Notes under the pieces: model-generated
What the model was told of the DNA's origin: nothing
Seen by the model: only the letters and a program-made list of their open reading frames with translations
Databases searched by the model: none
Shown here: piece after piece, positions 3,575 to 27,945 of the stretch
How the letters are laid out: each line of letters starts with the position of its first letter
Numbering within the stretch: the first letter of the stretch is position 1
Virus record (IMG/VR): IMGVR_UViG_3300010354_000100
Coordinates: 1-58,941 of that record
DNA: 58,941 bases
Origin: a virus
Direction: 5' to 3' (one strand)
Made by a program: the position numbers and the translations under genes

Positions 3575-3606
3575 CCCAAAATCGCCGGAACACCATATTT
3601 TGCGTG
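3575..3606 (+). repeat. oriented dispersed repeat, copy 1 (partial)
   Basis: Only the right arm is clear: GGAACACCATATTTT begins at 3587. The left arm is degenerate. First of 11 same-strand copies; see the findings. Confidence 0.6.
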
Positions 3607-3607
3607 T

Positions 3608-3931
3608 TTAATCCTGCTCTAGCCGTCTCCTTCGCAACGTTTCGTCCGACACATTGACTTCCTTCAGATATTTTTTCTTCTCCCACGCTTCCAATGCTTT
3701 CATTCCCTTCGGCGTGATGCGAATATTCTCGCCGTCGCGTGCGCACCAGCCGTTCGAGATGTATCGCCGGATGTATTCGTACGTTTGTGAGAGTGTGGGA
3801 ACGTTCCGGCCCTTTGCGTGTGCTCCGTCTGCCGGAGTAACGAACTGGATGTATACCGGAGCGTTGAATTCTTTGCCGATTCGGTTATAAAACCGCATGA
3901 TGTTGAGAATGTTCCACTTATGATTGGTCAT
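3608..3931 (-). CDS. small winged-helix-like hypothetical protein
   Basis: 107 aa. The segment TLSQTYEYIRRYISNGWCAR followed by ENIRITPKGMKALEAW looks like a winged helix with a beta-hairpin wing (NIRITPKG). Start overlaps the stop of the upstream metallohydrolase gene by four bases (ATGA), so the two are translationally coupled. Confidence 0.55.
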   Translation of the reverse strand: MTNHKWNILNIMRFYNRIGKEFNAPVYIQFVTPADGAHAKGRNVPTLSQTYEYIRRYISNGWCARDGENIRITPKGMKALEAWEKKKYLKEVNVSDETLRRRRLEQD

Positions 3932-4461
3932 TTGTTTCTCCCGGCAATCAATCTAGCCAGCATGACATCCTTTTCCTCCTGAGTGAGAGGTTTTTTCCAG
4001 CGTGTGTGTGTCTTGGAGTACTTGCAGTTATGTTTTTTCATCGCGGCCTTCAACTTGTTTTGCGTTTCTTCGCCGAAGAACAGTCTGACGAGATGCAGAT
4101 ACGTGCGGCAGAACTCTCTTCCGTGTCCGGCATACTCTGATGGAGTGAGTACGTGAGCGATTTCGTGCACCACTACCCACTCGGTTCGTGTCTTGCGCGG
4201 GAATGCCACAGAGATGTGGGTGTCGTACCGGCAAGTAAGGGCCCGGCGGTGTCCGGCTCCGTTGAGTATCTTCAGTTTCTGCGTGCCAGATACGATTTCC
4301 CGCGCGATTGGGTATTTACTTTGGACCCACCGGTTCTCTAAAACCTTCCAGAAGTACTCCTCCAGTTCCTCCATGTCCCGGAACTTTTCTTTGGACCATC
4401 CGAACACTTCCCACTCGGAGGCATAGAGCCGGCTGCGTTGGCTGTCGCGCGGGCGCTTCAT
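3928..4461 (-). CDS. TIGR04338-type putative metallohydrolase
   Basis: 177 aa. The N-terminal RDSQRSRLYASEWE and the zinc motif HEIAH (99-103) followed by GHGREF (His 113) match the actinobacterial and actinophage TIGR04338 family as I remember it. The biochemical role of the family is unknown. The second HEXXH protein within 1.5 kb. Confidence 0.75.
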   Translation of the reverse strand: MKRPRDSQRSRLYASEWEVFGWSKEKFRDMEELEEYFWKVLENRWVQSKYPIAREIVSGTQKLKILNGAGHRRALTCRYDTHISVAFPRKTRTEWVVVHEIAHVLTPSEYAGHGREFCRTYLHLVRLFFGEETQNKLKAAMKKHNCKYSKTHTRWKKPLTQEEKDVMLARLIAGRNK

Positions 4462-4469
4462 GAGGCCTC

Positions 4470-4535
4470 AGAGAAACGGCGTACGGCAGAATAAAACCAT
4501 TTCTGCTGGAACACCATATTTTCGGGCCAGAGGCA
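4470..4535 (+). repeat. oriented dispersed repeat, copy 2
   Basis: Contains GAGAAACGGC, AGAATAAAACC, a variable stretch and GGAACACCATATTTT from 4508, then GGCCAGAGGCAGG. The left arm departs from the consensus (AAACC instead of AATCCGA). Confidence 0.7.
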
Positions 4536-4650
4536 GGAAATAAAAAACGAAATGTATTTATCAATCATGTTGGTATCAATTGTACAGGCAGCGGGCGCAG
4601 AAACCAACTTTTACCGGAAGAAAATTTCCTCAAGATTTTTTCACGGGAGG

Positions 4651-4679
4651 TTGTGATGTGTGGCAGAGCATGATACAAT
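4651..4679 (+). promoter_or_regulatory. promoter for 4709 gene
   Basis: TTGTGA, 17 bp, TACAAT. First member of the common promoter type of this region. Confidence 0.8.
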
Positions 4680-4708
4680 CTAAGTACAACCAAATGAAAG
4701 GAATACCA

Positions 4709-5002
4709 ATGACAAAAACAACTATTGAACTTGACGCCAGGATTGAGGAGGCCATTGACAAGGCCATCCAAGCATTCTGGGGAAGCATCGTAGAGAGTTT
4801 TCCGGAATCCACCGGAGGAGACTTTGACCCGATGTACGAAGGCGTCATGTACCACGAGGCGACCGGCTGGCTGCGTCACTGGCTAGAACTAAATTGCCTG
4901 ACCTGCGAGAAGTGCGGGTCGCTGGTGCCGGAAAGCGACGCGTGCTACGAGATGGCAGAAGTTTCGTGCCCGGGTTGTTTTTCAAAGCAGTTCTCCCTAT
5001 GA
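4709..5002 (+). CDS. hypothetical protein with C-terminal zinc ribbon
   Basis: 97 aa from ATG 4709, which has AAAGGA upstream and a full promoter 30 bases before it. An acidic helical N-terminal half is followed by CEKCGSLVPESDACYEMAEVSCPGC broken into CxxC and CPGC pairs, a four-Cys zinc ribbon. Function not known. Confidence 0.7.
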   Translation: MTKTTIELDARIEEAIDKAIQAFWGSIVESFPESTGGDFDPMYEGVMYHEATGWLRHWLELNCLTCEKCGSLVPESDACYEMAEVSCPGCFSKQFSL

Positions 5003-5008
5003 TAGAAT
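4980..5008 (+). promoter_or_regulatory. promoter for 5043 gene
   Basis: TTTCAA, 17 bp, TAGAAT. It overlaps the end of the zinc-ribbon gene. Confidence 0.55.
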
Positions 5009-5042
5009 GTGATAACAACAACAACCCAATGGAGGTAACTTC

Positions 5043-5312
5043 CTGAGAAAAGTATTCGGCTGGCTCTTCGTGGCCTTTATCGCTGCCAATGCGAATGCGT
5101 GGGGCATGAGCAATCCGCTCATCCCTGTAGTTCTGCTTGGCGTCATCCTGTATCCATCAATCGTGGGGACCATCGGTCTCTGGCGCTTGCTGAGATTCAA
5201 CTACTTCCCAACACCACTACAACTACTGAAAGGATTCCGCAAGATATGGCCCGCCGTAAGAAAAGGTCCAGTCGTCACTCGGGTAAGTCGCCCATCATCA
5301 CGTACACCGTGA
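5043..5312 (+). CDS. small membrane protein, probable CTG start
   Basis: 89 aa if translated from CTG 5043, which sits seven bases after a perfect GGAGG (5031-5035); no ATG, GTG or TTG lies at that distance. The next in-frame start is GTG 5070, without a ribosome site. Two hydrophobic segments (residues about 5-17 and 26-48) predict an inner-membrane protein. Its 3' end overlaps the next gene by 67 bases. Confidence 0.5.
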   Translation: MRKVFGWLFVAFIAANANAWGMSNPLIPVVLLGVILYPSIVGTIGLWRLLRFNYFPTPLQLLKGFRKIWPAVRKGPVVTRVSRPSSRTP

Positions 5313-5491
5313 GTGTCGCGCACGAACCCGGCAGCGAATGCGACGCATGCGCGCAGCCCCGACCTGTTCTGATTGAGCAGGAAGGTGGCGCGTGGATATG
5401 CGAGATTTGCGCCGGCGGTGCAGACGCAGGAGATTTGTGGCGCGCAGCCATGCTCACCGGCGTTTACTCGTGGGGAGGAGACGGACTGTGA
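5246..5491 (+). CDS. small zinc-finger protein
   Basis: 81 aa. A basic N terminus (ARRKKRSSRHSGK) is followed by CDAC and CEIC pairs about 23 residues apart, a likely zinc ribbon. Begins inside the previous gene in another frame and overlaps the next start by four bases. Confidence 0.6.
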   Translation: MARRKKRSSRHSGKSPIITYTVSVAHEPGSECDACAQPRPVLIEQEGGAWICEICAGGADAGDLWRAAMLTGVYSWGGDGL

Positions 5492-5985
5492 AGCAGATTA
5501 CCGACGAAGTCATCCACGACTACCAGGCCAACCTCTGGAAGAGCGCCGTCGAGCGACATGGGACAGCCCTCAAGGTCCCCAGTGACGAGCAGCAGCGCAT
5601 CGGAGAACTGGTCCGCGGTCTCTACGTCATGCAGACGTGGCAGGCACATGGAAGTCAGGGAAACCCTGTGCGGTTCATGAAAGATTATTCAATTTCCATG
5701 AACGTCATAGGAGTACTTATTCCGGCGTTCTTAGGAAAACAAAAACTGGTCGAGATTGAAGAAGTCAAGCCAGTGAAGCGCGCAGACAGATGGCGCACAC
5801 TCGAAGAGTGGGCCAAGAAACATACATACCACGAGGTCACGACGGAACAACTTGTCGAGATTTCCGGATTCTCCTACCAGACCGTACTGAACTACGTGAA
5901 GACTTCACCGTACTTCCGCAGGATTCAGCGCGGGCAGTGGGAAGTCAGAGACCCCAAAGAAGACAGAGCAAGAGAGAAAAACTAA
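5488..5985 (+). CDS. helix-turn-helix hypothetical protein
   Basis: 165 aa, GTG start overlapping the previous stop, with GGAGGAG seven bases upstream. The C-terminal third (VTTEQLVEISGFSYQTVLNYVKTSP) reads as a helix-turn-helix. Possible DNA-binding or phage regulatory protein. Confidence 0.65.
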   Translation: MKQITDEVIHDYQANLWKSAVERHGTALKVPSDEQQRIGELVRGLYVMQTWQAHGSQGNPVRFMKDYSISMNVIGVLIPAFLGKQKLVEIEEVKPVKRADRWRTLEEWAKKHTYHEVTTEQLVEISGFSYQTVLNYVKTSPYFRRIQRGQWEVRDPKEDRAREKN

Positions 5986-6228
5986 ATGGCAAAGAAAACA
6001 GAGTTCCGGCAGCCGCCGGGACCGAGGAACGGCAGCCCATTCCAGGTCGCCAACTTCGTAGAGAAACTTAAAGACAATCCTGGAGAGTGGGCGGTCTACT
6101 GCACCGGCAATATTGCGCGGACCGGTCACTCCAAGGCACAGCAATATAAAAAGCGTTATCCAGGCACGGAGTGGATTGTCCGGCGCGAAGAAGACGGCTA
6201 CACCGTCTTTGGGCGCTGGGTGGGGTAA
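5986..6228 (+). CDS. small hypothetical protein
   Basis: 80 aa starting directly after the previous stop. Compact alpha/beta pattern (GEWAVYCTGNIARTGHSKAQQYKKRYPG) similar in style to single-domain phage proteins, but not recognised. Confidence 0.6.
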   Translation: MAKKTEFRQPPGPRNGSPFQVANFVEKLKDNPGEWAVYCTGNIARTGHSKAQQYKKRYPGTEWIVRREEDGYTVFGRWVG

Positions 6229-6237
6229 GGTGCTGCC

Positions 6238-6474
6238 ATGAAGCCACTCACTCTGAGTATCACTATCAACACGTACCGTGAGGGCGTGACGATAGCAAAT
6301 CTCATTCGAGAGCACGACGAAACTGCTGACGTACACCTGCACGAGGCCAAGAGGGGCAACGGGTGGGTCATCGTCTCCCACATCTGCATACCCCAGGAAG
6401 AAACAAACCGGCTACGCAGGCGCATCCGGGAGACCGGTGCCCTGTGCGTGGTGCGGGACGCAGACCAGGCCTAA
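6238..6474 (+). CDS. small hypothetical protein
   Basis: 78 aa, ten bases after the previous gene and probably in the same unit. Mixed alpha/beta pattern with an Arg-rich C terminus; no recognised motif. Ends where dispersed repeat copy 3 begins. Confidence 0.55.
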   Translation: MKPLTLSITINTYREGVTIANLIREHDETADVHLHEAKRGNGWVIVSHICIPQEETNRLRRRIRETGALCVVRDADQA

Positions 6475-6540
6475 GGGAACGGCTCCGCGCTAAATAAATC
6501 CGAAATATCTGGAACACCATATTTTGGGGACAGGGGCAAG
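6474..6540 (+). repeat. oriented dispersed repeat, copy 3
   Basis: AAGGGAACGGC, then TAAATAAATCCGA, 7 variable bases, GGAACACCATATTTT from 6511 and GGACAGGGGCAAG. This copy can fold into a hairpin pairing CCGAAATA with TATTTTGG. Confidence 0.85.
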
Positions 6541-6566
6541 TGAGACAGATTCCCAAAAGTGTCTCA
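6541..6566 (+). terminator. hairpin after repeat copy 3
   Basis: TGAGACA pairs with TGTCTCA across a 12-base loop, followed by AAATAAAAT. Weak terminator or RNA end. Confidence 0.45.
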
Positions 6567-6606
6567 AATAAAATACCGGACAGTTCTTGTGAAATTATGA
6601 ACAAGG

Positions 6607-6635
6607 TTGCAAAACCAGAAAGAATGTGCTACAAT
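6607..6635 (+). promoter_or_regulatory. promoter for leaderless 6642 gene
   Basis: TTGCAA, 17 bp, TACAAT; the ATG follows six bases after the -10 box, so transcription should start at the start codon. Confidence 0.85.
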
Positions 6636-6641
6636 TTACTT

Positions 6642-6890
6642 ATGACAACACAATACCTATTACAGAAAACCAACGACAAGGGCTACCGGCGATTCGTAGC
6701 AAAACTCTTGGGAGACAAGGGCGGAACCACCAGTTCCCTCCATCACGCTCTCACTTGGGACAGCGTGGCGAATGCCGAGACCTTCCGCATCATCAATGGG
6801 CTTCACCAGTTTGAGATAGTTCTCTCTGACGGGACTGATGACCAAGATGCCGAGGCAAAAGCATTCTGGGCGGCAAAGAATGGAAAATAA
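6642..6890 (+). CDS. small hypothetical protein, leaderless
   Basis: 82 aa. No Shine-Dalgarno; ATG 6642 is placed where the +1 base of the promoter at 6607 should be. Sequence begins MTTQYLLQKTND; overall acidic, not recognised. Confidence 0.7.
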   Translation: MTTQYLLQKTNDKGYRRFVAKLLGDKGGTTSSLHHALTWDSVANAETFRIINGLHQFEIVLSDGTDDQDAEAKAFWAAKNGK

Positions 6891-7188
6891 TCTTCACTGG
6901 ACGGATATGCTCCTCGCTGACCCCTCCACAGTTCGTGAATACATCATTGAGGAAGCAATTGACTGGTGGGTGTGTCGTTGCGGCAACAATCCAGACTCAG
7001 ATGGCTTCTCCACGTGTAGCGAAATAGGCGAACGCTGCGAGCCGACCATTGGACAGTGGGACGGCAAGCACTGGCTCTGCGAGTCCTGCTACCGAGTCAT
7101 TGACGGCGACACACTGGAAGTAATCAGTGGTTGTAGCCAAGATGTCGTAAATAAAAATGAGGAATATCGCTGGCACGAAGAGTTGTAA
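6880..7188 (+). CDS. cysteine-rich hypothetical protein
   Basis: 102 aa, overlapping the previous gene by 11 bases. Cys pairs WVCRCG, FSTC, ERC and LCESC suggest one or two zinc sites. Not assigned to a family. Confidence 0.65.
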   Translation: MENNLHWTDMLLADPSTVREYIIEEAIDWWVCRCGNNPDSDGFSTCSEIGERCEPTIGQWDGKHWLCESCYRVIDGDTLEVISGCSQDVVNKNEEYRWHEEL

Positions 7189-7200
7189 GACGTGCTAGAG

Positions 7201-7211
7201 TATGCTACAAT
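7201..7211 (+). promoter_or_regulatory. extended -10 promoter for 7245 gene
   Basis: TATGCTACAAT matches the extended -10 of the region; no good -35 at 17 bp. Confidence 0.55.
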
Positions 7212-7244
7212 GTAATAACAACCCAATCACAGAAAGAGAAACAA

Positions 7245-7415
7245 ATGAGCAAAACAAAATACCGGTATCACCTTTCGGCTTACCTTTCAGACTTCGTGGA
7301 ATCAACCAACGAGGATGAGGCGTGGGAAGCATTTCAGGAGATGGTCGCCAACGCCAAGTTGCGTGACTTCATCTTTGAGATGCAAGACATTGAGGAACTG
7401 GACGACGCACAATGA
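7245..7415 (+). CDS. small hypothetical protein
   Basis: 56 aa. AGAAAGAG precedes the ATG and could pair with the CUUUCU end of 16S rRNA. Aromatic N-terminal half and an acidic helical C-terminal half. Stop overlaps the next ATG. Confidence 0.65.
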   Translation: MSKTKYRYHLSAYLSDFVESTNEDEAWEAFQEMVANAKLRDFIFEMQDIEELDDAQ

Positions 7416-7717
7416 CCGTTCTTATCAAGATGCCCTTTGACAAGTGGTGCGAGAAATACCAACCAATCGTCAATGTCTTTGACAAGGATGCGTCGTTTAA
7501 TGACGGCGATTACGGACTTATGTTTGAGACATACGGGAAAGAACTGGACTTTGTTCTTGCCTATGTCAAAGCAAAGCCCCACAATGTCTGGACATACATT
7601 GACGGCGAGGAAGGCACGGTAGTCGTGAACGGCTATCACCTAGTAAATCGCATCGGGTATTTCGTGACCTACCAACCGGCAGAATCCGAGGCTTTCTACG
7701 AAATTGAGGTTTCGTAG
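7412..7717 (+). CDS. small hypothetical protein
   Basis: 101 aa, ATGA overlap with the upstream gene, so coupled. Rich in Tyr, Asp and Val with alternating strands; not recognised. Confidence 0.65.
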   Translation: MTVLIKMPFDKWCEKYQPIVNVFDKDASFNDGDYGLMFETYGKELDFVLAYVKAKPHNVWTYIDGEEGTVVVNGYHLVNRIGYFVTYQPAESEAFYEIEVS

Positions 7718-7718
7718 G

Positions 7719-7747
7719 TTGTCAAGTGTGCTACAATGTGGTACAAT
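7719..7747 (+). promoter_or_regulatory. promoter for 7781 gene
   Basis: TTGTCA, 17 bp, TACAAT. An in-frame ATG at 7754 lies at the expected +1, so a nine-codon longer leaderless form is possible. Confidence 0.8.
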
Positions 7748-7780
7748 GTAAGTATGAACCCAACACAGAAAGAGAACACA

Positions 7781-8017
7781 ATGAAACAATTTATTATCAG
7801 GCAAACCGTTGACCTTGACCTCCAGTGGTTGATTGAGGCGGAGTCTGTGGAAGATGCCCTCGCAAAAGCGTGGGGCAACTTTGACAGCGCCAAAGTCGTG
7901 GACATCTGTCCTCTTGACTGGGACAAGCCGTGGGATGCCGAAGAAGTAGAGGGTAAAGCACCGTCTTTCCTCTCCGCTAAGGAACTCCGCAAGTGGCAGG
8001 AAGTTGGTCTCCTCTAA
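7781..8017 (+). CDS. small hypothetical protein
   Basis: 78 aa from ATG 7781, preceded by AGAAAGAGAA. The alternative start 7754 is in frame and would be leaderless. The fold looks like a small beta-alpha domain with a tryptophan-rich end (DWDKPWDAEE). Confidence 0.65.
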   Translation: MKQFIIRQTVDLDLQWLIEAESVEDALAKAWGNFDSAKVVDICPLDWDKPWDAEEVEGKAPSFLSAKELRKWQEVGLL

Positions 8018-8025
8018 CCAGAGGT

Positions 8026-8053
8026 TGCCAAACCCGAAAATAAGTGATACAAT
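8026..8053 (+). promoter_or_regulatory. promoter for 8100 gene
   Basis: TTGCCA, 16 bp, TACAAT. Confidence 0.75.
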
Positions 8054-8099
8054 CTAAGTAACAGCAATAACCAACTCAACACAGAAAGATAAAACAACT

Positions 8100-8564
8100 A
8101 TGGGATTAGATATGTACCTTTCCGCCAAGAAGTATTACTCAGGTGCGGATTGGCGAACAGAAGAGAATAAAAAAGACTTTCAGGAACTCCTGAAGAAGTC
8201 GGGTATCGCAAAGTATGTGAAAACCGAACTTGCGAGTATTCAGTTGGAAGTATCCATCGGCTATTGGAGAAAGGCGAACGCCGTTCACCAATGGTTCGTG
8301 GACAACTGCCAGAACGGCGAGGACGACTGTCGCTACGCCTATGTCGGGCGTGAGAAGTTGGAAGAACTGAAGGCTTTGTGCCAGAAGGTTCTTCTCCAGC
8401 CAGCAGTGGCAGACGAAGAACTGCCGACCCAGCAGGGCTTCTTCTTCGGCTCGTACGAGTACGACGAATATTATTTCCACGACATCAAGCACACGGTTGC
8501 CATTATTGACAACTGTCTGGCTATGCCTGATGATTGGGAGTTCTACTACCACTCATCGTGGTAG
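8100..8564 (+). CDS. conserved phage protein of the MGLDMYL family
   Basis: 154 aa. Starts MGLDMYLSAKKYY and contains IGYWRKANAVHQWFVDNCQ and QQGFFFGSYEYDEYYFHD, which I recognise as a widespread phage family of unknown role. AGAAAGATAAAAC precedes the ATG. Confidence 0.75.
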   Translation: MGLDMYLSAKKYYSGADWRTEENKKDFQELLKKSGIAKYVKTELASIQLEVSIGYWRKANAVHQWFVDNCQNGEDDCRYAYVGREKLEELKALCQKVLLQPAVADEELPTQQGFFFGSYEYDEYYFHDIKHTVAIIDNCLAMPDDWEFYYHSSW

Positions 8565-8632
8565 ACACGACTGGCTGGGCTTGTCTGCGCGACATTGTCA
8601 ACAACGGCAACATGACCCAGCCACTAGTGGCT

Positions 8633-8660
8633 TGTGGTGGGGAGGGATTTCCCCACCACA
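8633..8660 (+). terminator. strong hairpin, no U-tract
   Basis: TGTGGTGGGG pairs perfectly with CCCCACCACA across an 8-base loop. A second, wider pairing (TGGCTGGG with CCCAGCCA) precedes it. Confidence 0.7.
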
Positions 8661-8662
8661 GG

Positions 8663-8691
8663 TTGTTATTAGTGATACAATATGATACAAT
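8663..8691 (+). promoter_or_regulatory. promoter for 8728 gene
   Basis: TTGTTA, 17 bp, TACAAT; the spacer holds a second GATACAAT. An in-frame ATG at 8698 is at the leaderless position. Confidence 0.75.
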
Positions 8692-8727
8692 GTAGTTATG
8701 AACACAACTCAACAGAAAGGCAACACA

Positions 8728-8949
8728 ATGAACTTAGACGAATGGAACAACAGATACCTCGGAGCGGTCATCGCCGTCGCCGAAGGTTCGGCTAAACCGA
8801 CCGACGAGATGGAAGATGGCTTCGCAGGCTTCGTGCTTGATGGCATCTTGGCAATCAAGGATGTCGAGACCGACCTCAACGACTGGGACTTGGTGGAACA
8901 CATCGCAGACTTCTGCGAGATGTCTATCGCCATTCAGGAGCGTTTCTAA
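8728..8949 (+). CDS. small acidic hypothetical protein
   Basis: 73 aa from ATG 8728 (AGAAAGG upstream); a leaderless start at 8698 would add ten residues. Acidic and helical. Stop overlaps the next ATG. Confidence 0.65.
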   Translation: MNLDEWNNRYLGAVIAVAEGSAKPTDEMEDGFAGFVLDGILAIKDVETDLNDWDLVEHIADFCEMSIAIQERF

Positions 8950-10678: not shown

Positions 10679-10743
10679 CAAGGGAACGACACAGCGCTAA
10701 ATAAATCCGATATCCAAGGAACACCATATTGTGTGGCAGGGGC
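10679..10743 (+). repeat. oriented dispersed repeat, copy 4
   Basis: AAGGGAACGAC, AAATAAATCCGA, 7 variable bases, GGAACACCATATTGT from 10718, then GGCAGGGGCAG. Confidence 0.85.
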
Positions 10744-13451: not shown

Positions 13452-13526
13452 CCAAGGGAACGGCCGCGCCCTAAATAAATCCGAAATCTGTGGAACACCA
13501 TATTTTTGGGAGGCGGGCAGAGGCAA
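13452..13526 (+). repeat. oriented dispersed repeat, copy 5
   Basis: AAGGGAACGGC, TAAATAAATCCGA, 7 variable bases, GGAACACCATATTTT from 13492, GGGCAGAGGCAA. Confidence 0.85.
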
Positions 13527-13556: not shown

Positions 13557-13577
13557 TTATCCACAGCCTGTGGATAA
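13557..13577. promoter_or_regulatory. pair of inverted consensus DnaA boxes
   Basis: TTATCCACA and TGTGGATAA separated by three bases, followed by an AT-rich stretch. Matches the bacterial DnaA-box consensus exactly on both strands. Confidence 0.7.
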
Positions 13578-13745: not shown

Positions 13746-14792
13746 ATGTCCAAAGAAACCATGGAGTGGCTCAACTCCAACATTCTCGTCGGGTTCACCG
13801 ATGAGCGTGGTCATGCGTGGCACTACCGCGCCGACCTACAAGGCAACGAGCCGAACCACTACAAGGGCGCAGTCCCTACGGATGACATTCTCCGCAGACT
13901 GTTCTCGTGGAAGGCAATCAGCGCGCCAGTGTTCATCCGAGTCCCCGCGACTCTCGATGACGCGACGGGCGTTGATGACGCAGGCAATCCGTACAAGTTC
14001 ATTCAGGCAGGCAATCGGCAGGCAATCTTGCGCGATGACACGCTTGACCTAATGGAAATCTTCAAGGACGGATACCGTTCGCACCAATACGGCGAATGGC
14101 TCGTTCAGAACCTTGCGAACATCGTTGATGACGAAATCAACTTTGGCTCGGCAGGACTCTTGAAGAACGGCGCGGTCGCGTTCGTATCGTTGGAGATGCC
14201 AGAGTCGGTGGAAGTGTTGAGCGGATTCTCAGTCCGTCCGCACCTACTGGCAACGACATCGCACAACGGACAACTCGCCACGACATACAAGAGCGTTAGC
14301 ACATTCGTAGTGTGCGACAACACTCACGCTATGGCGATGGGAGAGAACACGAGTCAGTTCAAGGCTCGTCACAGCAAGAACTCCGTGATGCGGATTCAAT
14401 CCGCGCGCGACGCACTCGGCATCGTTCACAAGATGACCGATGACATCGTTGCGGAAGTTCTCGCACTCTCGTCGCACAAAGTGAGTGACGCACAGTGGGA
14501 GAAGGTTCTCACCGCGCTCGCGCCGATTCCGACGCTTGACGATGACAACGCAAACAAAGCGGCAGTGACTCGCGCGGAGAACAAGCGCGACGAACTCGTG
14601 AACCTCTACAACTACGACACGCGCGTAGCACCGTGGAAAGGTTCGGCTCTTGGGGTTCTCCAAGCGTTCAACACATACAACCACCACATCGTGGGCGCGA
14701 ATGGCAACCGCGCTGAGCGCAACATGATGAACGCGCTCATGGGCAAGACCGAGCAGTCTGACCGCAAGGTTCTAGACCTACTCGGAGTCTGA
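13746..14792 (+). CDS. DUF932 / TIGR03299-type phage-plasmid protein
   Basis: 348 aa, the largest product of the array. GFTDERGHAWHYRADLQG..HYKGAVP near the start, LRDDTLDLMEIFKDGYRSHQYGEWL, and the VVCDNTHAMAMGE core match the family found on phages and plasmids beside defence or replication genes. Biochemical role unknown. AAGAAAGGC precedes the ATG. Confidence 0.8.
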   Translation: MSKETMEWLNSNILVGFTDERGHAWHYRADLQGNEPNHYKGAVPTDDILRRLFSWKAISAPVFIRVPATLDDATGVDDAGNPYKFIQAGNRQAILRDDTLDLMEIFKDGYRSHQYGEWLVQNLANIVDDEINFGSAGLLKNGAVAFVSLEMPESVEVLSGFSVRPHLLATTSHNGQLATTYKSVSTFVVCDNTHAMAMGENTSQFKARHSKNSVMRIQSARDALGIVHKMTDDIVAEVLALSSHKVSDAQWEKVLTALAPIPTLDDDNANKAAVTRAENKRDELVNLYNYDTRVAPWKGSALGVLQAFNTYNHHIVGANGNRAERNMMNALMGKTEQSDRKVLDLLGV

Positions 14793-15500: not shown

Positions 15501-15538
15501 GTCCCGGCGCGCCTTACCTCCTTTCCGCGCGCCGGGAC
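15501..15538 (+). terminator. terminator with anti-Shine-Dalgarno loop
   Basis: Perfect 12-bp stem GTCCCGGCGCGC/GCGCGCCGGGAC; the loop is CTTACCTCCTTTCC, which contains ACCTCCTTTC, the 3' tail of 16S rRNA. Confidence 0.8.
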
Positions 15539-15545: not shown

Positions 15546-15618
15546 CCCAAGGAAATCGCCGCGCCGAATAAATCCAACAATCAAGGAACACCATAAATTC
15601 GGGGGGCGGAGGCAGGTT
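15546..15618 (+). repeat. oriented dispersed repeat, copy 6
   Basis: CAAGGAAATCGCCGCGC, GAATAAATCC, variable bases, GGAACACCATAAATT from 15585, GGCGGAGGCAGG. Confidence 0.8.
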
Positions 15619-17847: not shown

Positions 17848-17920
17848 CAAGGGAAACGCAGCGCGTGGAATAAATCCGATTATCTTGGAACACCATTTCT
17901 TGCGCGGAGGCAGGGGCAGG
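17848..17920 (+). repeat. oriented dispersed repeat, copy 7
   Basis: CAAGGGAAACGCAGCGC, GAATAAATCCGA, 7 variable bases, GGAACACCATTTCTT from 17887, GGAGGCAGGGGCAGG. Confidence 0.8.
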
Positions 17921-19007: not shown

Positions 19008-19080
19008 CAAGAGAAACGCCGCTCGCGAAATAAATCCGATTACGAAGGAACACCATAAATTCGGGCGGGAGCCAGGAGCA
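19008..19080 (+). repeat. oriented dispersed repeat, copy 8
   Basis: CAAGAGAAACGCCGC, GAAATAAATCCGA, 7 variable bases, GGAACACCATAAATT from 19047; CCGA can pair with TCGG. Confidence 0.85.
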
Positions 19081-20106: not shown

Positions 20107-20175
20107 CAAGGAAACGCAGCGCACGGAATAAATCCGATTGTGAAGGAACACCATATTGTCAGGGGGCGGAGGCAG
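20107..20175 (+). repeat. oriented dispersed repeat, copy 9
   Basis: CAAGGAAACGCAGCGC, GAATAAATCCGA, 7 variable bases, GGAACACCATATTGT from 20145, GGCGGAGGCAG. Confidence 0.85.
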
Positions 20176-21932: not shown

Positions 21933-22014
21933 CCAAGGAACGCTCAGCGCGAAATAAATCCGAACATTCTGGAACACCATATTTTCGGAAGCGGGCGGAG
22001 GCAGATTGTGAAAG
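21933..22014 (+). repeat. oriented dispersed repeat, copy 10
   Basis: CAAGGAACGCTCAGCGC, GAAATAAATCCGA, 7 variable bases, GGAACACCATATTTT from 21971; CCGAA can pair with TTCGG. Confidence 0.85.
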
Positions 22015-22015
22015 T

Positions 22016-22039
22016 TCGCACTTTCACAAGACCGAGGAA
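22016..22039 (+). terminator. perfect hairpin
   Basis: TTGTGAAAGT-TCGC-ACTTTCACAA directly after repeat copy 10. Confidence 0.6.
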
Positions 22040-22523: not shown

Positions 22524-22531
22524 TCGGGTCG

Positions 22532-22735: not shown

Positions 22736-22791
22736 TCGGCGGGCGAAGAGCACCGGGCAGCGGGCTTGTGAAAAGTTTCTTTTGTTTGGAG

Positions 22792-22820
22792 TTGCGAAAC
22801 TGTCGCAAGTGTGATACACT
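22792..22820 (+). promoter_or_regulatory. promoter for 22871 gene
   Basis: TTGCGA, 17 bp, TACACT; leader hairpin GTGGGGC-AATC-GCCTCAC. Confidence 0.85.
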
Positions 22821-22870
22821 TTTATTAGTGGGGCAATCGCCTCACATAACACAACAAGGAGAAAAAAGTA

Positions 22871-23119
22871 ATGCGACACAAAGGAATGGTGGCAAGTGCC
22901 GAAGTGGTACTTAGCCCGACAATTGAGTACGGAGTCCGTACTGAGTGGGCAATAGCCCTCCACTTTCAGAGCCCGACTGGTGACAGTTCGGACTTTATGG
23001 TGCGAGAGTTGCCCTGCCTCTCACGAGAGCAGGCAGTCATTATTGCCGACAAGTGGAATAGCGAAGTATGCCCCGAACTGGTGGGCAGGTTCGCAGTATC
23101 CGACCTGTTGCCGAACTAA
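22871..23119 (+). CDS. hypothetical protein
   Basis: 82 aa, AAGGAG upstream. Two-strand plus helix pattern (TEWAIALHFQSP; SREQAVIIADKWNSE). Unassigned. Confidence 0.6.
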   Translation: MRHKGMVASAEVVLSPTIEYGVRTEWAIALHFQSPTGDSSDFMVRELPCLSREQAVIIADKWNSEVCPELVGRFAVSDLLPN

Positions 23120-23130
23120 CCAACCCAAAA

Positions 23131-23152
23131 GGGTGGGGCGAAAGCCCCACCC
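23131..23152 (+). terminator. hairpin terminator with GNRA loop
   Basis: GGGTGGGGC-GAAA-GCCCCACCC. Confidence 0.75.
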
Positions 23153-23221
23153 GACAGGGGGCGGCAGAGGCAGCGGGCGAATTCTGTAACACAAAAGTAA
23201 CAAAAAAAAGTGTGTTTCGGG

Positions 23222-23250
23222 TTGACAACCGTACACCCTTGTGATACACT
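23222..23250 (+). promoter_or_regulatory. promoter for 23297 gene
   Basis: TTGACA, 17 bp with GTACACCC, TACACT; leader hairpin AGTGGGG-AAAA-CCCCACT. Confidence 0.9.
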
Positions 23251-23296
23251 GTAATTAGTGGGGAAAACCCCACTACAACACAAAGGAGAAAACCAA

Positions 23297-23536
23297 ATGA
23301 ACGGAATAGTCGGAACAAGGGTGGCAATGCCAGCCAACCCAACAGCGTGGCTGAGGGACAACGCTCGCAAGGGCGCAATGCTCTACACCCGAGACGGCGT
23401 GACCGTGGCACTGGTGAACACCCAGACCACCTACGGAGACCCAGACAAGGGCACCCAGCAGCACCCCCTCTACGCCCCCCAGGGCGAGGGCAAGCGGGTC
23501 TACTCGGCTCGCCCAGTAATGCCAATGCTTGACTAA
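23297..23536 (+). CDS. AWLRDNAR-family small protein B
   Basis: 79 aa, AAGGAG upstream. TAWLRDNARKGAMLYTRDGV and a later PDKGTQQHPLYAP block match the 20356 gene closely. Role unknown. Confidence 0.65.
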   Translation: MNGIVGTRVAMPANPTAWLRDNARKGAMLYTRDGVTVALVNTQTTYGDPDKGTQQHPLYAPQGEGKRVYSARPVMPMLD

Positions 23537-23547
23537 GAACCCCCGAA

Positions 23548-23571
23548 GGGGAAGGGCGAAAGCCCTTCCCC
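23548..23571 (+). terminator. hairpin terminator
   Basis: GGGGAAGGGC pairs with GCCCTTCCCC, loop GAAA. Confidence 0.75.
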
Positions 23572-23613
23572 GAACGGCGGGCAGAGGCAGCCCCCGGGCG
23601 AGCGGGCGTTTCT

Positions 23614-23757
23614 GTATGTCTGTCTAACACCCGATTAGAAGCGTCAGGAAGCCCCAGGACGCGAGCAGAAAAAAAGTGGAGACTAGGGCAGAATAAATAG
23701 TCTGTCTCACAACCTGACGCACTAGGGCACGTCTGGCAGAGGGCGAACGTATGTTCG
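23614..23757 (+). ncRNA. twin non-coding element B
   Basis: Same order of conserved blocks as element A: TGTCTGTCTAACA, AGACTAGGGCAGAATAA, TGTCTCACA, CGTCTGGCA, and the end hairpin GCGAAC-GTAT-GTTCGC. GCGTCAGG pairs with CCTGACGC and AGACTA with TAGTCT. No ORF. Confidence 0.6.
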
Positions 23758-23807
23758 CTCGGAGGGCGAGGAAGGCAGCGGGCCGGCAAAAAAAGTTTCT
23801 CTCGGAG

Positions 23808-23836
23808 TTGACAAACCGCTTAGGCTGTGATACACT
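23808..23836 (+). promoter_or_regulatory. promoter of RNA candidate 2
   Basis: TTGACA, 17 bp, TACACT, a full-strength match with no coding sequence for about 390 bases downstream. Confidence 0.85.
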
Positions 23837-23842
23837 AATAAC

Positions 23843-24150
23843 ATAAGCAACAACGGCGAAAGCGGGTAGTCCGCTAGTAACCAGACAACTAGCAGCCCCC
23901 ACTCTCTGGGCAACAATCCCCGTGAGAAGATAAGTGGCGACCCAAGCGGTCGGGCAAACGGGTGCGACGTTGGCGGTAGGTGAAAGCCCTACGACATACA
24001 ACCCCGAAAGGGGTGAAACGCGCCAAGGCTTCGGCGTGCGAGACGCACGTTACGGCTACGAAGCAAGAGGGCACGGTGAGGCTTTACCTGACGGGCAACA
24101 ATCCCCTAGTAGGCAAAGATAGCCACCCGCAGCGGGTGAGAACCCCGCAA
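23843..24150 (+). ncRNA. candidate structured non-coding RNA 2
   Basis: About 300 nt, no plausible ORF. Helices seen: GCTAGT/ACTAGC (23873/23888), CCACT/AGTGG (23899/23933), TTGGCG/CGCCAA (23970/24021) enclosing GTAGG/CCTAC and ACCCC-GAAA-GGGGT, GCTTCG/CGAAGC (24028/24059) enclosing CGTGCG-AGA-CGCACG, and CACCCG-CAG-CGGGTG (24124). GGGCAACAATCCCC occurs twice (23908, 24093). Does not match tmRNA, RNase P or group I intron cores that I can recall. Confidence 0.65.
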
Positions 24151-24168
24151 AAATAATTCTCTCAGGAG

Positions 24169-24197
24169 TTGACAAACTCCCGAGGGTGTGATACACT
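24169..24197 (+). promoter_or_regulatory. promoter for 24235 gene
   Basis: TTGACA, 17 bp, TACACT. Confidence 0.9.
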
Positions 24198-24234
24198 GGA
24201 ATTATCAGGCAATAACCAACCCAAGGAGGAAACA

Positions 24235-24489
24235 ATGGACACAATGGATTATCTCTCGGCAGAGCAGGTCAACGGAATAGACCCATTCTGCGAATGGTGC
24301 GGGCGGGTCACCTGCCACATTGGGGAGCACGAGCACGAACTGGCGCTAGGGCTTGTCACCTACGAGGAGAACAGTTACGTCAAGGTAACCGCCCTCGGGT
24401 ATGCGGTCAAGGCGAACGAGGAGGTTTCTCGCAAACTCTCGGATGCGCTCTACGGGCTCTACCTCATCGAGGGAGAGGTTGCTCAATGA
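24235..24489 (+). CDS. small protein with Cys motif
   Basis: 84 aa, AAGGAGG upstream. CEWCGRVTCHIGEHEHE near the N terminus looks like a zinc knuckle; the rest is acidic and helical. Stop overlaps the next ATG. Confidence 0.6.
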   Translation: MDTMDYLSAEQVNGIDPFCEWCGRVTCHIGEHEHELALGLVTYEENSYVKVTALGYAVKANEEVSRKLSDALYGLYLIEGEVAQ

Positions 24490-24617
24490 GACTCCAACTA
24501 TTGCTCACCTGCCCCGAATGCGGGCAGACGCTCACGAGGGAGGAGATGGCTTACGGTCACGACTGCGAAGTCCCAGCCGAAGGACAGTGGAGCCCCGAGG
24601 AGGACGATAACGCCTAG
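24486..24617 (+). CDS. 43-aa zinc-ribbon-like protein
   Basis: ATGA overlap with the preceding gene. MRLQLLLTCPECGQTLTREE with a later HDC gives a CxxC-HxC zinc site. Confidence 0.55.
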   Translation: MRLQLLLTCPECGQTLTREEMAYGHDCEVPAEGQWSPEEDDNA

Positions 24618-24719
24618 CCCCCGGGCAGCGTTGCCGAAGGGCGGCAGAGGCAGAGGAGAGAGGCGGCGGGCGAGCGGGGCGGTCTCTCCCCGACTTTTCC
24701 TCCCTGCCCCTCTACTTCC

Positions 24720-24748
24720 ATTGTAGCACAACCCGACGCAAAAAGCAA
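24720..24748 (-). promoter_or_regulatory. minus-strand promoter, no clear gene
   Basis: On minus: TTGCTT, 17 bp, TACAAT. The flanking 75 bases resemble those at 15673-15757. Confidence 0.65.
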
Positions 24749-24783
24749 CCTCTAAAAATAAATTTTTTTTCTTCCCGTAAGAG

Positions 24784-24812
24784 TTGACAGTACGCCCCAC
24801 ACTTGGTACAAT
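24784..24812 (+). promoter_or_regulatory. promoter for 24859 gene
   Basis: TTGACA, 17 bp, TACAAT; leader hairpin TGTAAGGC-AATCCC-GCCTTACA. Confidence 0.9.
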
Positions 24813-24858
24813 GTAGTTGTAAGGCAATCCCGCCTTACAAACAGAAAGAGGTAACTCA

Positions 24859-25101
24859 ATGAGTCAAGTCCAAGAAGGTGAGATGGTGAACGTGTTCCAG
24901 TTCCGCTTTCTCATCCACTGCTACATCACAGAGATTCTCTCAGGTCTCCGTGTGTGTCAAATCCCACTGAGCCGAGTCGCCCCACGATTCGGTGTCACCA
25001 CCAAGAACAAGAAGAAGGCACTCACCCAACTCCTCGCCAACTACGAGGCAACAATGGGCGAGCCTTACGAAGACGACCGCCTAGTGCGAATCTTCGGCTA
25101 G
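24859..25101 (+). CDS. hypothetical protein
   Basis: 80 aa. RFLIHCYITEILSGLRVCQIP then RFGVTTKNKKKALTQLLANYEA, helical with a basic turn; could be DNA-binding. Not recognised. Confidence 0.6.
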   Translation: MSQVQEGEMVNVFQFRFLIHCYITEILSGLRVCQIPLSRVAPRFGVTTKNKKKALTQLLANYEATMGEPYEDDRLVRIFG

Positions 25102-25108
25102 CGAGTCC

Positions 25109-25135
25109 GCTCGGGCAGGCAACCCCTGCCCGAGC
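25109..25135 (+). terminator. hairpin terminator, possibly bidirectional
   Basis: GCTCGGGCAGG pairs with CCTGCCCGAGC, 5-base loop. Confidence 0.7.
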
Positions 25136-25165
25136 ACTTTCGCACGAGGGCGGCAGAGGCAGGCG

Positions 25166-25183
25166 GGCGAACGTATGTTCGCC
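25166..25183. repeat. GCGAAC-N4-GTTCGC hairpin
   Basis: GGCGAAC-GTAT-GTTCGCC; same element ends twin RNA B and recurs at 26444. Confidence 0.6.
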
Positions 25184-25303
25184 CCCGGGCGATGAGAGCG
25201 GCGGGCTGCGGCGGTGGCGGGCCGAGGAGAAGAGAGGCGGCGGGCAAGAAGGGCGGCGGGCCAGAGCCGAGGAGGGAGACGGTCTCTCCCCTCCCCCACT
25301 ATC

Positions 25304-25332
25304 AGTGTATCACATCTAAGCGAATTTGTCAA
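25304..25332 (-). promoter_or_regulatory. minus-strand promoter, no clear gene
   Basis: On minus: TTGACA, 17 bp, TACACT, pointing into the GC-rich repeat block. Confidence 0.7.
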
Positions 25333-25366
25333 CCTCAAAAGATTTATTTTTTTTTGGCGTTTTAGG

Positions 25367-25395
25367 TTGACAAATGTCTGACAATACCCTATACT
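25367..25395 (+). promoter_or_regulatory. promoter for 25442 peptide
   Basis: TTGACA, 17 bp, TATACT; leader hairpin of the GTGGGG class follows. Confidence 0.9.
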
Positions 25396-25441
25396 GGAAT
25401 TAGTGGGGAAAACCTCACCTAACACAATAAAGGAGAACAAA

Positions 25442-25516
25442 ATGACTAACGAAGAGTTCCTCGCAAAGGTTGCCGAGATTGTAGAAGAGATTCTCGCAAT
25501 CGTTGACGAAGAGTAA
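25442..25516 (+). CDS. 24-aa acidic peptide
   Basis: MTNEEFLAKVAEIVEEILA and DEE end, an acidic amphipathic helix. It has its own strong promoter, a 5' hairpin and AAGGAG before the ATG, so it is likely translated despite its size. Confidence 0.55.
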   Translation: MTNEEFLAKVAEIVEEILAIVDEE

Positions 25517-25530
25517 ATAAAAAATAGGGG

Positions 25531-25552
25531 TTCGGGTTGACAAAAGCCCGAA
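25531..25552 (+). terminator. short hairpin overlapping next promoter
   Basis: TTCGGG pairs with CCCGAA; the next -35 box lies in the loop, so terminator and promoter overlap. Confidence 0.55.
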
Positions 25553-25565
25553 CCTCTGTTATACT
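25537..25565 (+). promoter_or_regulatory. promoter for 25602 gene
   Basis: TTGACA, 17 bp, TATACT. Confidence 0.9.
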
Positions 25566-25601
25566 TAGATTAGTAGGGAATACCAACCAAAGGAGAACAA
25601 A

Positions 25602-25748
25602 ATGGAAAACGAAGACCTAGACAGAATTATCTGGAATGAGTACGAGGCAGGCTGGTACGGAGTGCCAGTAGGCAAGTACACCTACCGACAAATGCTCGCC
25701 AAGTGGAGAGCCGAAAACGAAGAAATCCGAAAGGCGAAAGCCAACTAG
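25602..25748 (+). CDS. 48-aa hypothetical protein
   Basis: AAGGAG upstream. WNEYEAGWYGVPVGKYTYRQ then a charged helix; unassigned. Confidence 0.6.
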   Translation: MENEDLDRIIWNEYEAGWYGVPVGKYTYRQMLAKWRAENEEIRKAKAN

Positions 25749-25764
25749 GACCGAGAGTCCCGAA

Positions 25765-25784
25765 GGGGGAGGGCGACCTCCCCC
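25765..25784 (+). terminator. hairpin terminator
   Basis: GGGGGAGG pairs with CCTCCCCC, 4-base loop. Confidence 0.65.
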
Positions 25785-25840
25785 GAGAGGGGCGACAGGG
25801 GCAGCCCCGGGCGGCGGACAAGAAATATTTGCCCGAGAGG

Positions 25841-25869
25841 TTGACAAATCAAAAGTAATGTGATACACT
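25841..25869 (+). promoter_or_regulatory. promoter for 25910 gene
   Basis: TTGACA, 17 bp, TACACT. Confidence 0.9.
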
Positions 25870-25909
25870 GGTTTTAGTAGGGAATACCAACAACAAAAGG
25901 AGAAACACA

Positions 25910-26119
25910 ATGGATAAGAACAAGCAACTACAAAACCTCGCCGAGGAGTTCTTCGGTGAGTGGGCAATCGTCGCCAGCGACATTCCTGCTGTCGTGAAGA
26001 CTTTCGCCCGATACCTTCGCAGTGAGAAGGGCTTCACGCTCAACATCACCGACGAGGCGTGGGAGCGCTACACGGCGGGCTGGTTCGCCAAGCGGCTCTC
26101 GCCAGCGGGCCGCCGCTAA
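25910..26119 (+). CDS. small helical protein
   Basis: 69 aa, AAGGAG upstream. Mostly alpha (LQNLAEEFFGEWAIVASDIP; VVKTFARYLRSEKG) with a basic end. Unassigned. Confidence 0.6.
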   Translation: MDKNKQLQNLAEEFFGEWAIVASDIPAVVKTFARYLRSEKGFTLNITDEAWERYTAGWFAKRLSPAGRR

Positions 26120-26157
26120 ACCCCAAGGGGAGAGGCGAGAAATATTTGCCCACGGAG

Positions 26158-26186
26158 TTGACAAACCGAGGGTGGTGTGATACACT
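26158..26186 (+). promoter_or_regulatory. promoter for 26226 gene
   Basis: TTGACA, 17 bp, TACACT. Confidence 0.9.
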
Positions 26187-26225
26187 GGAATTATCAGGTA
26201 ATAACCAACACAAAGGAGAAACATA

Positions 26226-26423
26226 ATGAAGGAATACACACTGGTAGCAGAACTCACCGACGCAGAGGGTGGCGAGTGGACGGCGGACGCCGGAATCCTC
26301 GCAGCCGATGATGCGTCGGCAGTTCGTCAGGCTCGCATTTGGGCAAAGGACGAGGCGACGGCACAGGGTGCCAAACTCGTCGAGTTCTACGCTCAGGATG
26401 CCCAGGGCGTGGCGCACCGCTAA
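26226..26423 (+). CDS. small hypothetical protein
   Basis: 65 aa, AAGGAG upstream. Strand-helix-strand (YTLVAELTDAEGGEW; DDASAVRQARIWAKDEA; AKLVEFYAQD) like small phage proteins with a ferredoxin-like half-fold. Confidence 0.6.
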   Translation: MKEYTLVAELTDAEGGEWTADAGILAADDASAVRQARIWAKDEATAQGAKLVEFYAQDAQGVAHR

Positions 26424-26443
26424 ACCCCCAAGGGGAGAGGCGA

Positions 26444-26459
26444 GCGAACACTTGTTCGC
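26444..26459. repeat. GCGAAC-N4-GTTCGC hairpin
   Basis: GCGAAC-ACTT-GTTCGC after the 26226 gene. Confidence 0.6.
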
Positions 26460-26528
26460 CCTCCCCTGAGGGAGGCGGCAGAGGCAGAAATAGGAGGGCG
26501 AGCGCAAAAAATGTTCGCCCGAGAATGC

Positions 26529-26557
26529 TTGACAAATGTCAGAGAGTGTGATACACT
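26529..26557 (+). promoter_or_regulatory. promoter for 26584 gene
   Basis: TTGACA, 17 bp, TACACT. Confidence 0.9.
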
Positions 26558-26583
26558 GGTATTAGTAGGGAAAGGAGACCCGA

Positions 26584-26712
26584 ATGACACCAAGAGACCA
26601 GAACAGAATCACGAGGGACGAGCACGAGGTCGTACCGATTTACGACTGGGCGCTTGACCCCGAAATGAACGAGGACTTCGCCCAGTGGGCTGAGGAACTC
26701 GCCGAGGGCTGA
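26584..26712 (+). CDS. 42-aa acidic protein
   Basis: AAGGAG upstream. RDEHEVVPIYDWALDPEMNE and an acidic C terminus; no family. Confidence 0.55.
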   Translation: MTPRDQNRITRDEHEVVPIYDWALDPEMNEDFAQWAEELAEG

Positions 26713-26818
26713 GAGGTCCGAGGAGAAGGGCGACAAAAGAAAATAGTCCTACCAAGGGGGACGGCCTTGCCTGACGGCGGGCCTCCCCCGAGGAGGAGAA
26801 GGATTCCGGAGGGAGAGG

Positions 26819-26847
26819 TTGTCTTTCCCCGAGGGAAGTTGTATAAT
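26819..26847 (+). promoter_or_regulatory. promoter for 26872 peptide
   Basis: TTGTCT, 17 bp, TATAAT. Confidence 0.8.
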
Positions 26848-26871
26848 AAAAGTAACAAGAAAGGGAAAGTA

Positions 26872-26937
26872 ATGCATTGGGCGTTCGGATTCGCACTCGT
26901 TGCGCTAACCATTCGGTTAGTCGGAAAGAGTCAATAA
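26872..26937 (+). CDS. 21-aa membrane peptide
   Basis: MHWAFGFALVALTIRLVGKSQ is one short hydrophobic span with a basic end. AAGGGAAAG precedes the ATG and the promoter is near-consensus. Confidence 0.45.
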   Translation: MHWAFGFALVALTIRLVGKSQ

Positions 26938-26943
26938 CAAAGG

Positions 26944-26972
26944 TTGCAAAAACTCAAGACATCTGTTATACT
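26944..26972 (+). promoter_or_regulatory. promoter for 27008 peptide
   Basis: TTGCAA, 17 bp, TATACT. Confidence 0.85.
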
Positions 26973-27007
26973 AATAACAGGGCAGAGAGAAAGGAAAAGG
27001 TAAACAC

Positions 27008-27103
27008 ATGGTTATCGAAATTTATGACTGGATGTGTGCCGTGCCGGTGGCAGTTGCTGCCGTCGTCATCGCCGTCATCTTCAAAGCCAAGAAAATGAAG
27101 TAA
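27008..27103 (+). CDS. 31-aa membrane peptide
   Basis: A hydrophobic span VPVAVAAVVIAVIF followed by KAKKMK, a single-pass membrane peptide with cytoplasmic basic tail. GAAAGGAAAAGG upstream. Confidence 0.55.
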   Translation: MVIEIYDWMCAVPVAVAAVVIAVIFKAKKMK

Positions 27104-27288
27104 TCCAAGGGCGCAGCCCTGCGGGCGAGTGTGTTCGCCTGCGGGGCTCGCCTACGGGCGAGGCTTGTGAAAATCTGCACGAACCACGGGCGGCGGGCAA
27201 GAGCGGAGGAGAAGGGCGACCATCTCACGATTTTGGTCAAAACCCGAGGATGCGGCGGGCGAAGAGAGAAAAAAATGTGCCGCGGGAG

Positions 27289-27317
27289 TTGCGCGCGGGC
27301 TGAATCTGTGATACACT
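27289..27317 (+). promoter_or_regulatory. promoter for 27361 gene
   Basis: TTGCGC, 17 bp, TACACT; leader hairpin GTGGGG-AAAA-CCCCAC. Confidence 0.8.
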
Positions 27318-27360
27318 GGGATTAGTGGGGAAAACCCCACCAAACACAAAGGAGAAGACA

Positions 27361-27579
27361 ATGAAAACCATCAACGAGCAAGCACAAGAAATGCGAGAGT
27401 TACTGAGCCACTTGGTCTCCCGGATAGACGAAGCGGTGAACCAAGCCAACGAGGAAAGCGACAAGGAGTACGCAGACAATCAACTCGCAGATGAGTTGAG
27501 CAGCGTGGCCTTCCGGTGCGACCACCTCGCCTACGACTACAAGTACGGCCAAGACATCCTCCGAGCCTCCGAGCGGTAA
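27361..27579 (+). CDS. small helical protein
   Basis: 72 aa, AAGGAG upstream. Nearly all alpha-helical and acidic (EQAQEMRELLSHLVSRIDEA; NQLADELSSVAFRC). Unassigned. Confidence 0.6.
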   Translation: MKTINEQAQEMRELLSHLVSRIDEAVNQANEESDKEYADNQLADELSSVAFRCDHLAYDYKYGQDILRASER

Positions 27580-27582
27580 AGA

Positions 27583-27623
27583 CTTCGGCGGTCGCACAAA
27601 AAGTCAAGTGCGACCGCCGGAAG
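27583..27623 (+). terminator. long hairpin terminator
   Basis: CTTCGGCGGTCGCAC pairs with GTGCGACCGCCG-GAAG with one bulged G. Confidence 0.75.
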
Positions 27624-27735
27624 TTTCTTCCGGAAAGCCCCAGGACGGTAAGGTCTGCGGGCGAGGTATGCGGGCGATACAGCGGGCAAGCGACACCGGC
27701 TGCGAAGGGCAGTGGCAGAGGAGAAGGAAGGGCGA

Positions 27736-27768
27736 CCACGGAGAGTGATTGCCGGCCACGGAGAGTGA
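27736..27768. repeat. tandem CCAC-type palindromes
   Basis: CCACGGAGAGTGA at 27736 and 27756, identical and 20 bp apart. Confidence 0.6.
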
Positions 27769-27878
27769 GCAATTTATCTCGCGTTTTTGGAAAAAAACCG
27801 AGGATGGCGGGCAAGGCCAAGGGCAAGGGCGGTAACGCGACCGGGGCGGCGGGCCGCCCGGGTGCCGACGCCCGGGAG

Positions 27879-27945
27879 CCAAGGAAACGCTACGCGCAGA
27901 ATAAATCCGAATATCTTGGAACACCATATTTTGGGCCGGGGAGGA
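27879..27945 (+). repeat. oriented dispersed repeat, copy 11
   Basis: CCAAGGAAACGCTACGCGC, GAATAAATCCGA, 7 variable bases, GGAACACCATATTTT from 27918. Confidence 0.85.

Follow-up and report, generated by a model that had tools for sequence, protein, structure and literature searches.

An oriented, tripartite intergenic repeat in the early region of uncultured actinobacterial viruses

Why would a viral genome carry the same long sequence between its genes again and again, always on one strand, with constant arms around a variable centre? The question arises for IMG/VR record IMGVR_UViG_3300010354_000100, whose full stretch of 58,941 nucleotides (positions 1 to 58,941) is referred to here as the window. 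Eleven same-strand copies of such a repeat had been described in an earlier note made from the letters alone, and these were borne out: a search of the window with the C-block sequence GGAACACCATATTTT, allowing up to three mismatches, returned 11 matches, 11 of 11 on the plus strand, against a chance expectation of 1.23, and none of 100 shuffles reached 11. The centres proposed in that note are the exact starts of the C blocks (3587, 4508, 6511, 10718, 13492, 15585, 17887, 19047, 20145, 21971, and 27918). The copies are located as follows; gene calling was crude throughout, and gene counts are approximate.

3558..3601, plus strand: element copy 1, with a degenerate A block and without the tail, between convergent genes
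4470..4522, plus strand: element copy 2, upstream of the minus-strand gene 3928-4461
6474..6525, plus strand: element copy 3, its A block overlapping the stop codon (TAA, 6472-6474) of ORF 6238-6474
10681..10732, plus strand: element copy 4
13455..13506, plus strand: element copy 5, with paired DnaA boxes and then a DUF932 gene downstream
15549..15599, plus strand: element copy 6
17850..17901, plus strand: element copy 7
19010..19061, plus strand: element copy 8
20108..20159, plus strand: element copy 9
21935..21985, plus strand: element copy 10
27881..27932, plus strand: element copy 11, with a DnaA box downstream

Anatomy of the repeat

The repeat is about 50 bp long and tripartite, consisting of an A block (CAAGGRAAACGGC-like), a B block (AATAAANCC), a 9-bp core, and a C block (GGAACACCATWTTTT). 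A starts 10-22 bp before the start of B, mostly 18-21 bp (one copy with a poorly placed A block left out), and the spacing between B and C is fixed at exactly 9 bp. This core is AT-rich (72% AT vs. 29% in the A-B spacer). The core is variable, as previously proposed, but its constant length is 9 bp rather than "GA" plus seven bases, the first position being A, G, or T in relatives. Across 78 distinct copies, the invariant columns are A0, T2, and A4 in B and A23-C24-C25-A26-T27 in C. No dyad symmetry was found, column 2 being an invariant T and its would-be partner, column 28, A or T about equally. Several variant copies (G002 at 989 and 2311, G007 at 119 and 1452, G008 at L093:4064, and others) lack GGAAC and keep B and ACCAT at unchanged spacing, which ruled out GGAAC as an ECF-type -35 box. 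The conserved parts had been listed as running in order into a GGCAGGGGCAG-like tail. The A, B, and C blocks do occur in that order, with A loosely spaced, but the tail is a separate feature: 15 of its 24 matches in the region lie away from any element, and it is a general, commoner intergenic repeat outside the element. Behind many elements, palindromes that differ from copy to copy follow the tail (TTGTGAAAGT..ACTTTCACAA, TGAGACA..TGTCTCA, and GTGTTAGGC..GCCTAACAC-like; e.g., 22006-22029, 6541-6566, and 27959-27980), and these are possible operators or hairpins.

Conservation and turnover among related contigs

A 40-bp weight matrix applied to 11 related IMG/VR contigs, the window included, identified 87 copies, of which 78 are distinct, in one orientation throughout (window, 11 copies; G001, 9; G002, 9; G003, 9; G004, 3; G005, 13; G006, 12; G007, 4; G008, 8; G009, 7; G010, 2). 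G003 is a near-duplicate of G001 and is counted within the 87, and further contigs were found by scanning IMG/VR for the B-N9-C pattern. Elements scored >17 and shuffled contigs ≤0.7; one extra minus-strand match in G007, scoring 13.1, was taken as noise. The copies are confined to the early region, the weight-matrix search finding no element elsewhere in these contigs. Terminase and capsid proteins are 40-47% like those of Gordonia phage GMA6 and Brevibacterium phage Cantare, and the carriers form an uncultured virus family of actinobacteria. Blastn of isolate phages with the consensus element gave chance-level matches only, as did a search of plasmids. A host origin was rejected as well: the short pattern did occur in 54 stretches of bacterial or archaeal DNA, which we attribute to chance because each held a single match without an A block.

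Drift equal to that of neutral spacer in related phages would have argued against a conserved element, and the comparison with relatives instead favoured one. Between orthologous copies of the window and G006, identity was 0.92 for B, 0.89 for C, 0.73 for the core, and 0.67 for the A-B spacer; between non-orthologous copies it was 0.92, 0.88, 0.41, and 0.42, respectively. B and C are thus equally conserved whether or not copies are orthologous, and purifying selection therefore seems to act on the arms, while the core drifts as the neighbouring spacer does, within a limit on base composition. Copy 1, in which the A block is degenerate, has a C block that is the same or almost the same in the orthologues of six relatives. 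Gene order is largely syntenic across contigs, with single elements gained or lost individually. For example, the site after DUF932 is empty in the window and filled in G006 (copy at 13835); there, homology ends at the start of the element, and the following regulatory region differs too.

Genomic surroundings of the copies

Copies 1 and 2 are both on the plus strand and flank an operon on the opposite strand:

3608..3931, minus strand: gene m1 of the operon bracketed by copies 1 and 2, conserved in six relatives by tblastn
3928..4461, minus strand: gene m2 of the same operon, conserved in six relatives, with a weak SprT-like match

The elements are therefore oriented with the genome, or with plus-strand transcription, and not with the adjacent gene. 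The distant contigs G008 and G009 have neither m1 nor m2 between their first two elements, which are separated by 73 and 67 bp, respectively. A minus-strand promoter (TTGATA-N17-TACATT, 4579-4551) probably places copy 2 within the 5' leader of the operon, antisense to it. We infer that these facts favour a function at the DNA level over one in RNA, although antisense read-through is compatible with them.

Each copy had also been described as standing after a terminator and before a promoter. Upstream, strong GC hairpins precede copies 5-11, but these have no T tract, and copies 1-4 have no hairpin; overall, GC hairpins upstream of copies are more frequent than expected from shuffling. In the window, gene-end GC hairpins at 15516, 16417, 18969, and 21890, again without a T tract, show ACCTCCTT or CCTCCTT in their loops, which is anti-Shine-Dalgarno sequence. 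Downstream, a TTG-N-TANANT promoter was found 40-330 bp from 38 of 73 copies (median 154 bp), but copy 1 is followed by a convergent minus-strand gene. The extended -10 sequence GTGATAC occurs in 8 of 24 promoters behind elements vs. 67 of 99 others, in related genomes and by a comparison partly chosen post hoc. In two of five pairs compared between the window and G006, the distance from element to promoter differs by 7 bp, which disfavours strict helical phasing. TGTCTAACA and direct repeats of GTAACA also occur near elements; their statistics are only suggestive, because both were first spotted beside elements and the related genomes are non-independent. Between 6600 and 27360 of the window, a TTG-N-GTGATACAMT promoter is common to many short transcription units, and several mRNAs seem to begin with a GGGG...CCCC hairpin followed by a ribosome-binding site.

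DnaA boxes were strongly concentrated behind the repeat. Among 35 boxes of sequence TTATCCACA, 19 lie 40-200 bp downstream of copies, against 0.68 expected, and 200 permuted 9-mers never placed more than 3 in the same zone. Of 40 promoters linked to elements, 10 had such a box nearby, against none of 193 other promoters, counted across related and hence non-independent genomes. Two instances in the window directly follow copies:

13557..13577, no strand assigned: perfect inverted pair of DnaA boxes, TTATCCACA-N3-TGTGGATAA, downstream of copy 5
28000..28008, plus strand: DnaA box TTATCCACA, downstream of copy 11

Another box lies at 29377 of the window, and relatives show similar clustering behind elements.

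Two regulators encoded in this region, a Cro/C1-type HTH protein (10859) and a ribbon-helix-helix protein (10480), had been put forward as binders of the repeat. They are unlikely to serve as such, because G009 (68 kb) keeps seven copies and neither gene was detected in it. WhiB (PF02467) was the one regulator family found in 11 of 11 contigs, with one or two genes in each, and is considered a candidate trans factor only:

158..355, plus strand: WhiB domain (PF02467), the first of two, candidate trans factor
31701..32006, minus strand: second WhiB-family gene (PF02467, E 1e-18), candidate trans factor

WhiB proteins are a marker of an actinobacterial host. In the window, G005, and G006, a WhiB-type gene lies on each side of the element region. 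ParB-like proteins are conserved among the relatives. A search of 10 contigs that carry the element, fragments among them, gave no tyrosine integrase (PF00589), although a diverged fold might escape detection, and no serine resolvase was found in 11 contigs, several of them fragments; with no integrase found, a lysogeny repressor is not implied. Elsewhere in the window, a B12-dependent ribonucleotide reductase is encoded on the minus strand (41343-43268) within the plus-strand late region, and positions 44313-44348 match the type I hammerhead ribozyme below threshold (27.1 bits; cut-off, 34).

Candidate functions and known counterparts

Any account of the repeat has to accommodate its anatomy, conservation, strand bias, intergenic placement, and DnaA-box association. 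Our tentative first choice is an asymmetric operator acting as a polar roadblock or insulator between transcription units, a reading in which protein binding, the blocking effect, and its polarity are all deduced from sequence patterns. A single conserved, sequence-specific protein, most probably encoded by the phage, would recognize each copy as an asymmetric, three-part site in double-stranded DNA. It is predicted to grip B and C, two half-sites set at a fixed distance on either side of the flexible AT-rich core; the A block, whose spacing is loose, would provide an accessory contact. With the protein bound, the copies would be polar boundaries, each placed after one transcription unit has ended and before a promoter under separate regulation. 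They would either keep upstream RNA polymerase out of the next unit or set the state of the downstream promoter. The earlier note had offered a repressor site acting as a roadblock, a recombination core, and an RNA hairpin; the first fits best, but not with the two proteins it named. Counting against a polar insulator, the need for copy 2 between divergent genes is unexplained, and many similar intergenic gaps have no element.

An unlikely rival is a DNA site linked to replication or segregation, with copies and DnaA boxes marking origin-like or fork-polarity sites for the host replisome. Orientation independent of neighbouring genes, the concentration of DnaA boxes downstream of copies, the conserved ParB-like proteins, and the lack of a DNA polymerase among the G006 proteins scanned (best 25 of 72 PHROG families) all agree with it. 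Yet a perfect DnaA box accompanies a minority of copies only, GC skew shows no common origin at elements, the elements are intergenic and restricted to the early region, and the boxes may merely regulate promoters. A more speculative proposal, and a rather remote one, joins both ideas: a new phage architectural or regulatory protein would split the early region into polar domains and act with host DnaA at the domain heads, tying expression or the start of replication to the replication state of the host. It is also improbable that an RNA polymerase modified by the phage uses the repeat as its promoter or upstream activating site, perhaps together with the phage WhiB proteins, B serving as -35 and CATWTT in C as -10. 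The B-C distance does fit -35/-10 spacing, copies point toward downstream genes, WhiB is encoded in 11 of 11 contigs, and the variants lacking GGAAC retain B and ACCAT; but the first -10 position of CATWTT is always C, unlike the sigma-A pattern TANNNT, transcription from copy 1 would run into a convergent operon, neither a sigma factor nor a phage RNA polymerase was seen among the proteins scanned, and a generic intergenic repeat stands directly after the C block.

About as improbable is a cis-acting RNA element in read-through transcripts, serving processing, stability, or antitermination, to which the sense strand shared with most neighbouring mRNAs, the AU-rich segment amid GC-rich surroundings, and the frequent downstream hairpins would be suited. 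Against this, copies have no consensus fold, the closing CCC/GGG stem lacks covariation (z = 0.96) and none was seen within B-C, an Rfam search gave no match at elements, and there is no obvious sense transcript across copies 1 and 2; the CCGAA/TTCGG pairing previously suggested does not covary across copies either (z = 1.9). Least probable by far is a site-specific recombination core for exchanging gene units. Constant arms around a variable core would suit it, as would the tandem copies of G008 and G009 without the intervening operon, but the contigs searched for recombinases yielded none, cores differ among copies within one genome, and in the one gain or loss examined closely, between the window and G006, the change does not run from core to core and takes in the following region as well.

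Among described systems, the stoperators of Cluster A mycobacteriophages (L5/D29; PMC5712189) resemble the polar operator proposed here in being asymmetric, present in many copies, mostly intergenic, and set in one direction relative to transcription; a phage repressor binds them and lowers downstream expression (PMC5712189). Stoperators are 13 bp long, however, unlike the ~50-bp tripartite element, beside which no integrase was found, and their consensus GGTGGMTGTCAAG, which varies among Cluster A phages (PMC5712189), has three matches here with up to two mismatches against 2.76 expected, i.e., chance. SPBRE sites of Bacillus phage SPbeta (PMC10516654) are likewise dispersed and intergenic, about ten in number, and bound by a single phage regulator, MrpR, but they are 15-bp motifs at temperate-phage promoters and MrpR has a tyrosine-recombinase fold, for which the integrase-family search of 10 contigs gave no match, although a diverged fold might be missed. 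The 17-bp palindromes of Cluster O (PMC4351075) and the SAS/ESAS of Cluster K (PMC3203893) are, like the element, enriched among non-structural actinophage genes, and ESAS share a variable spacer between arms. In contrast to the asymmetric element, Cluster O sites are palindromic, so that orientation is meaningless, and about one-third lie in genes, while SAS lie a few bases from the start codon; the element has its promoter, if found, ~90-260 bp downstream and before the gene.

Judged by description, the closest parallels are oriented intergenic motifs found in Microbacterium phages (PMC7302621). Cluster EC phages have an 18-bp asymmetric repeat (12 copies in small intergenic gaps, all oriented alike), and Cluster EI phages, which have two ParB-like genes and no integrase, a 30-bp repeat (five copies in short intergenic regions); neither repeat is assigned a function. 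The EC motif TAGaCTATaGGTgTaAgC lies 21-30 bp before start codons, whereas the element differs in sequence, lies farther from starts, and has a variable core.

Taken together, the element is a real, conserved, oriented intergenic phage repeat with unusual anatomy and a DnaA association, and has no earlier description in the sources searched. Oriented intergenic repeats are known from several actinophage groups, several of them without known function. This one stands out by its length and tripartite build, by its conservation among phages that have diverged deeply, and by an orientation that stays the same on both sides of an inverted operon; these traits narrow the range of mechanisms. Its link to DnaA boxes offers a concrete way to ask if repeats of this kind act as insulators between transcription units or are tied to replication. 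By analogy, it would work most like a stoperator or an SPBRE-type dispersed operator, being neither by sequence or known binder.
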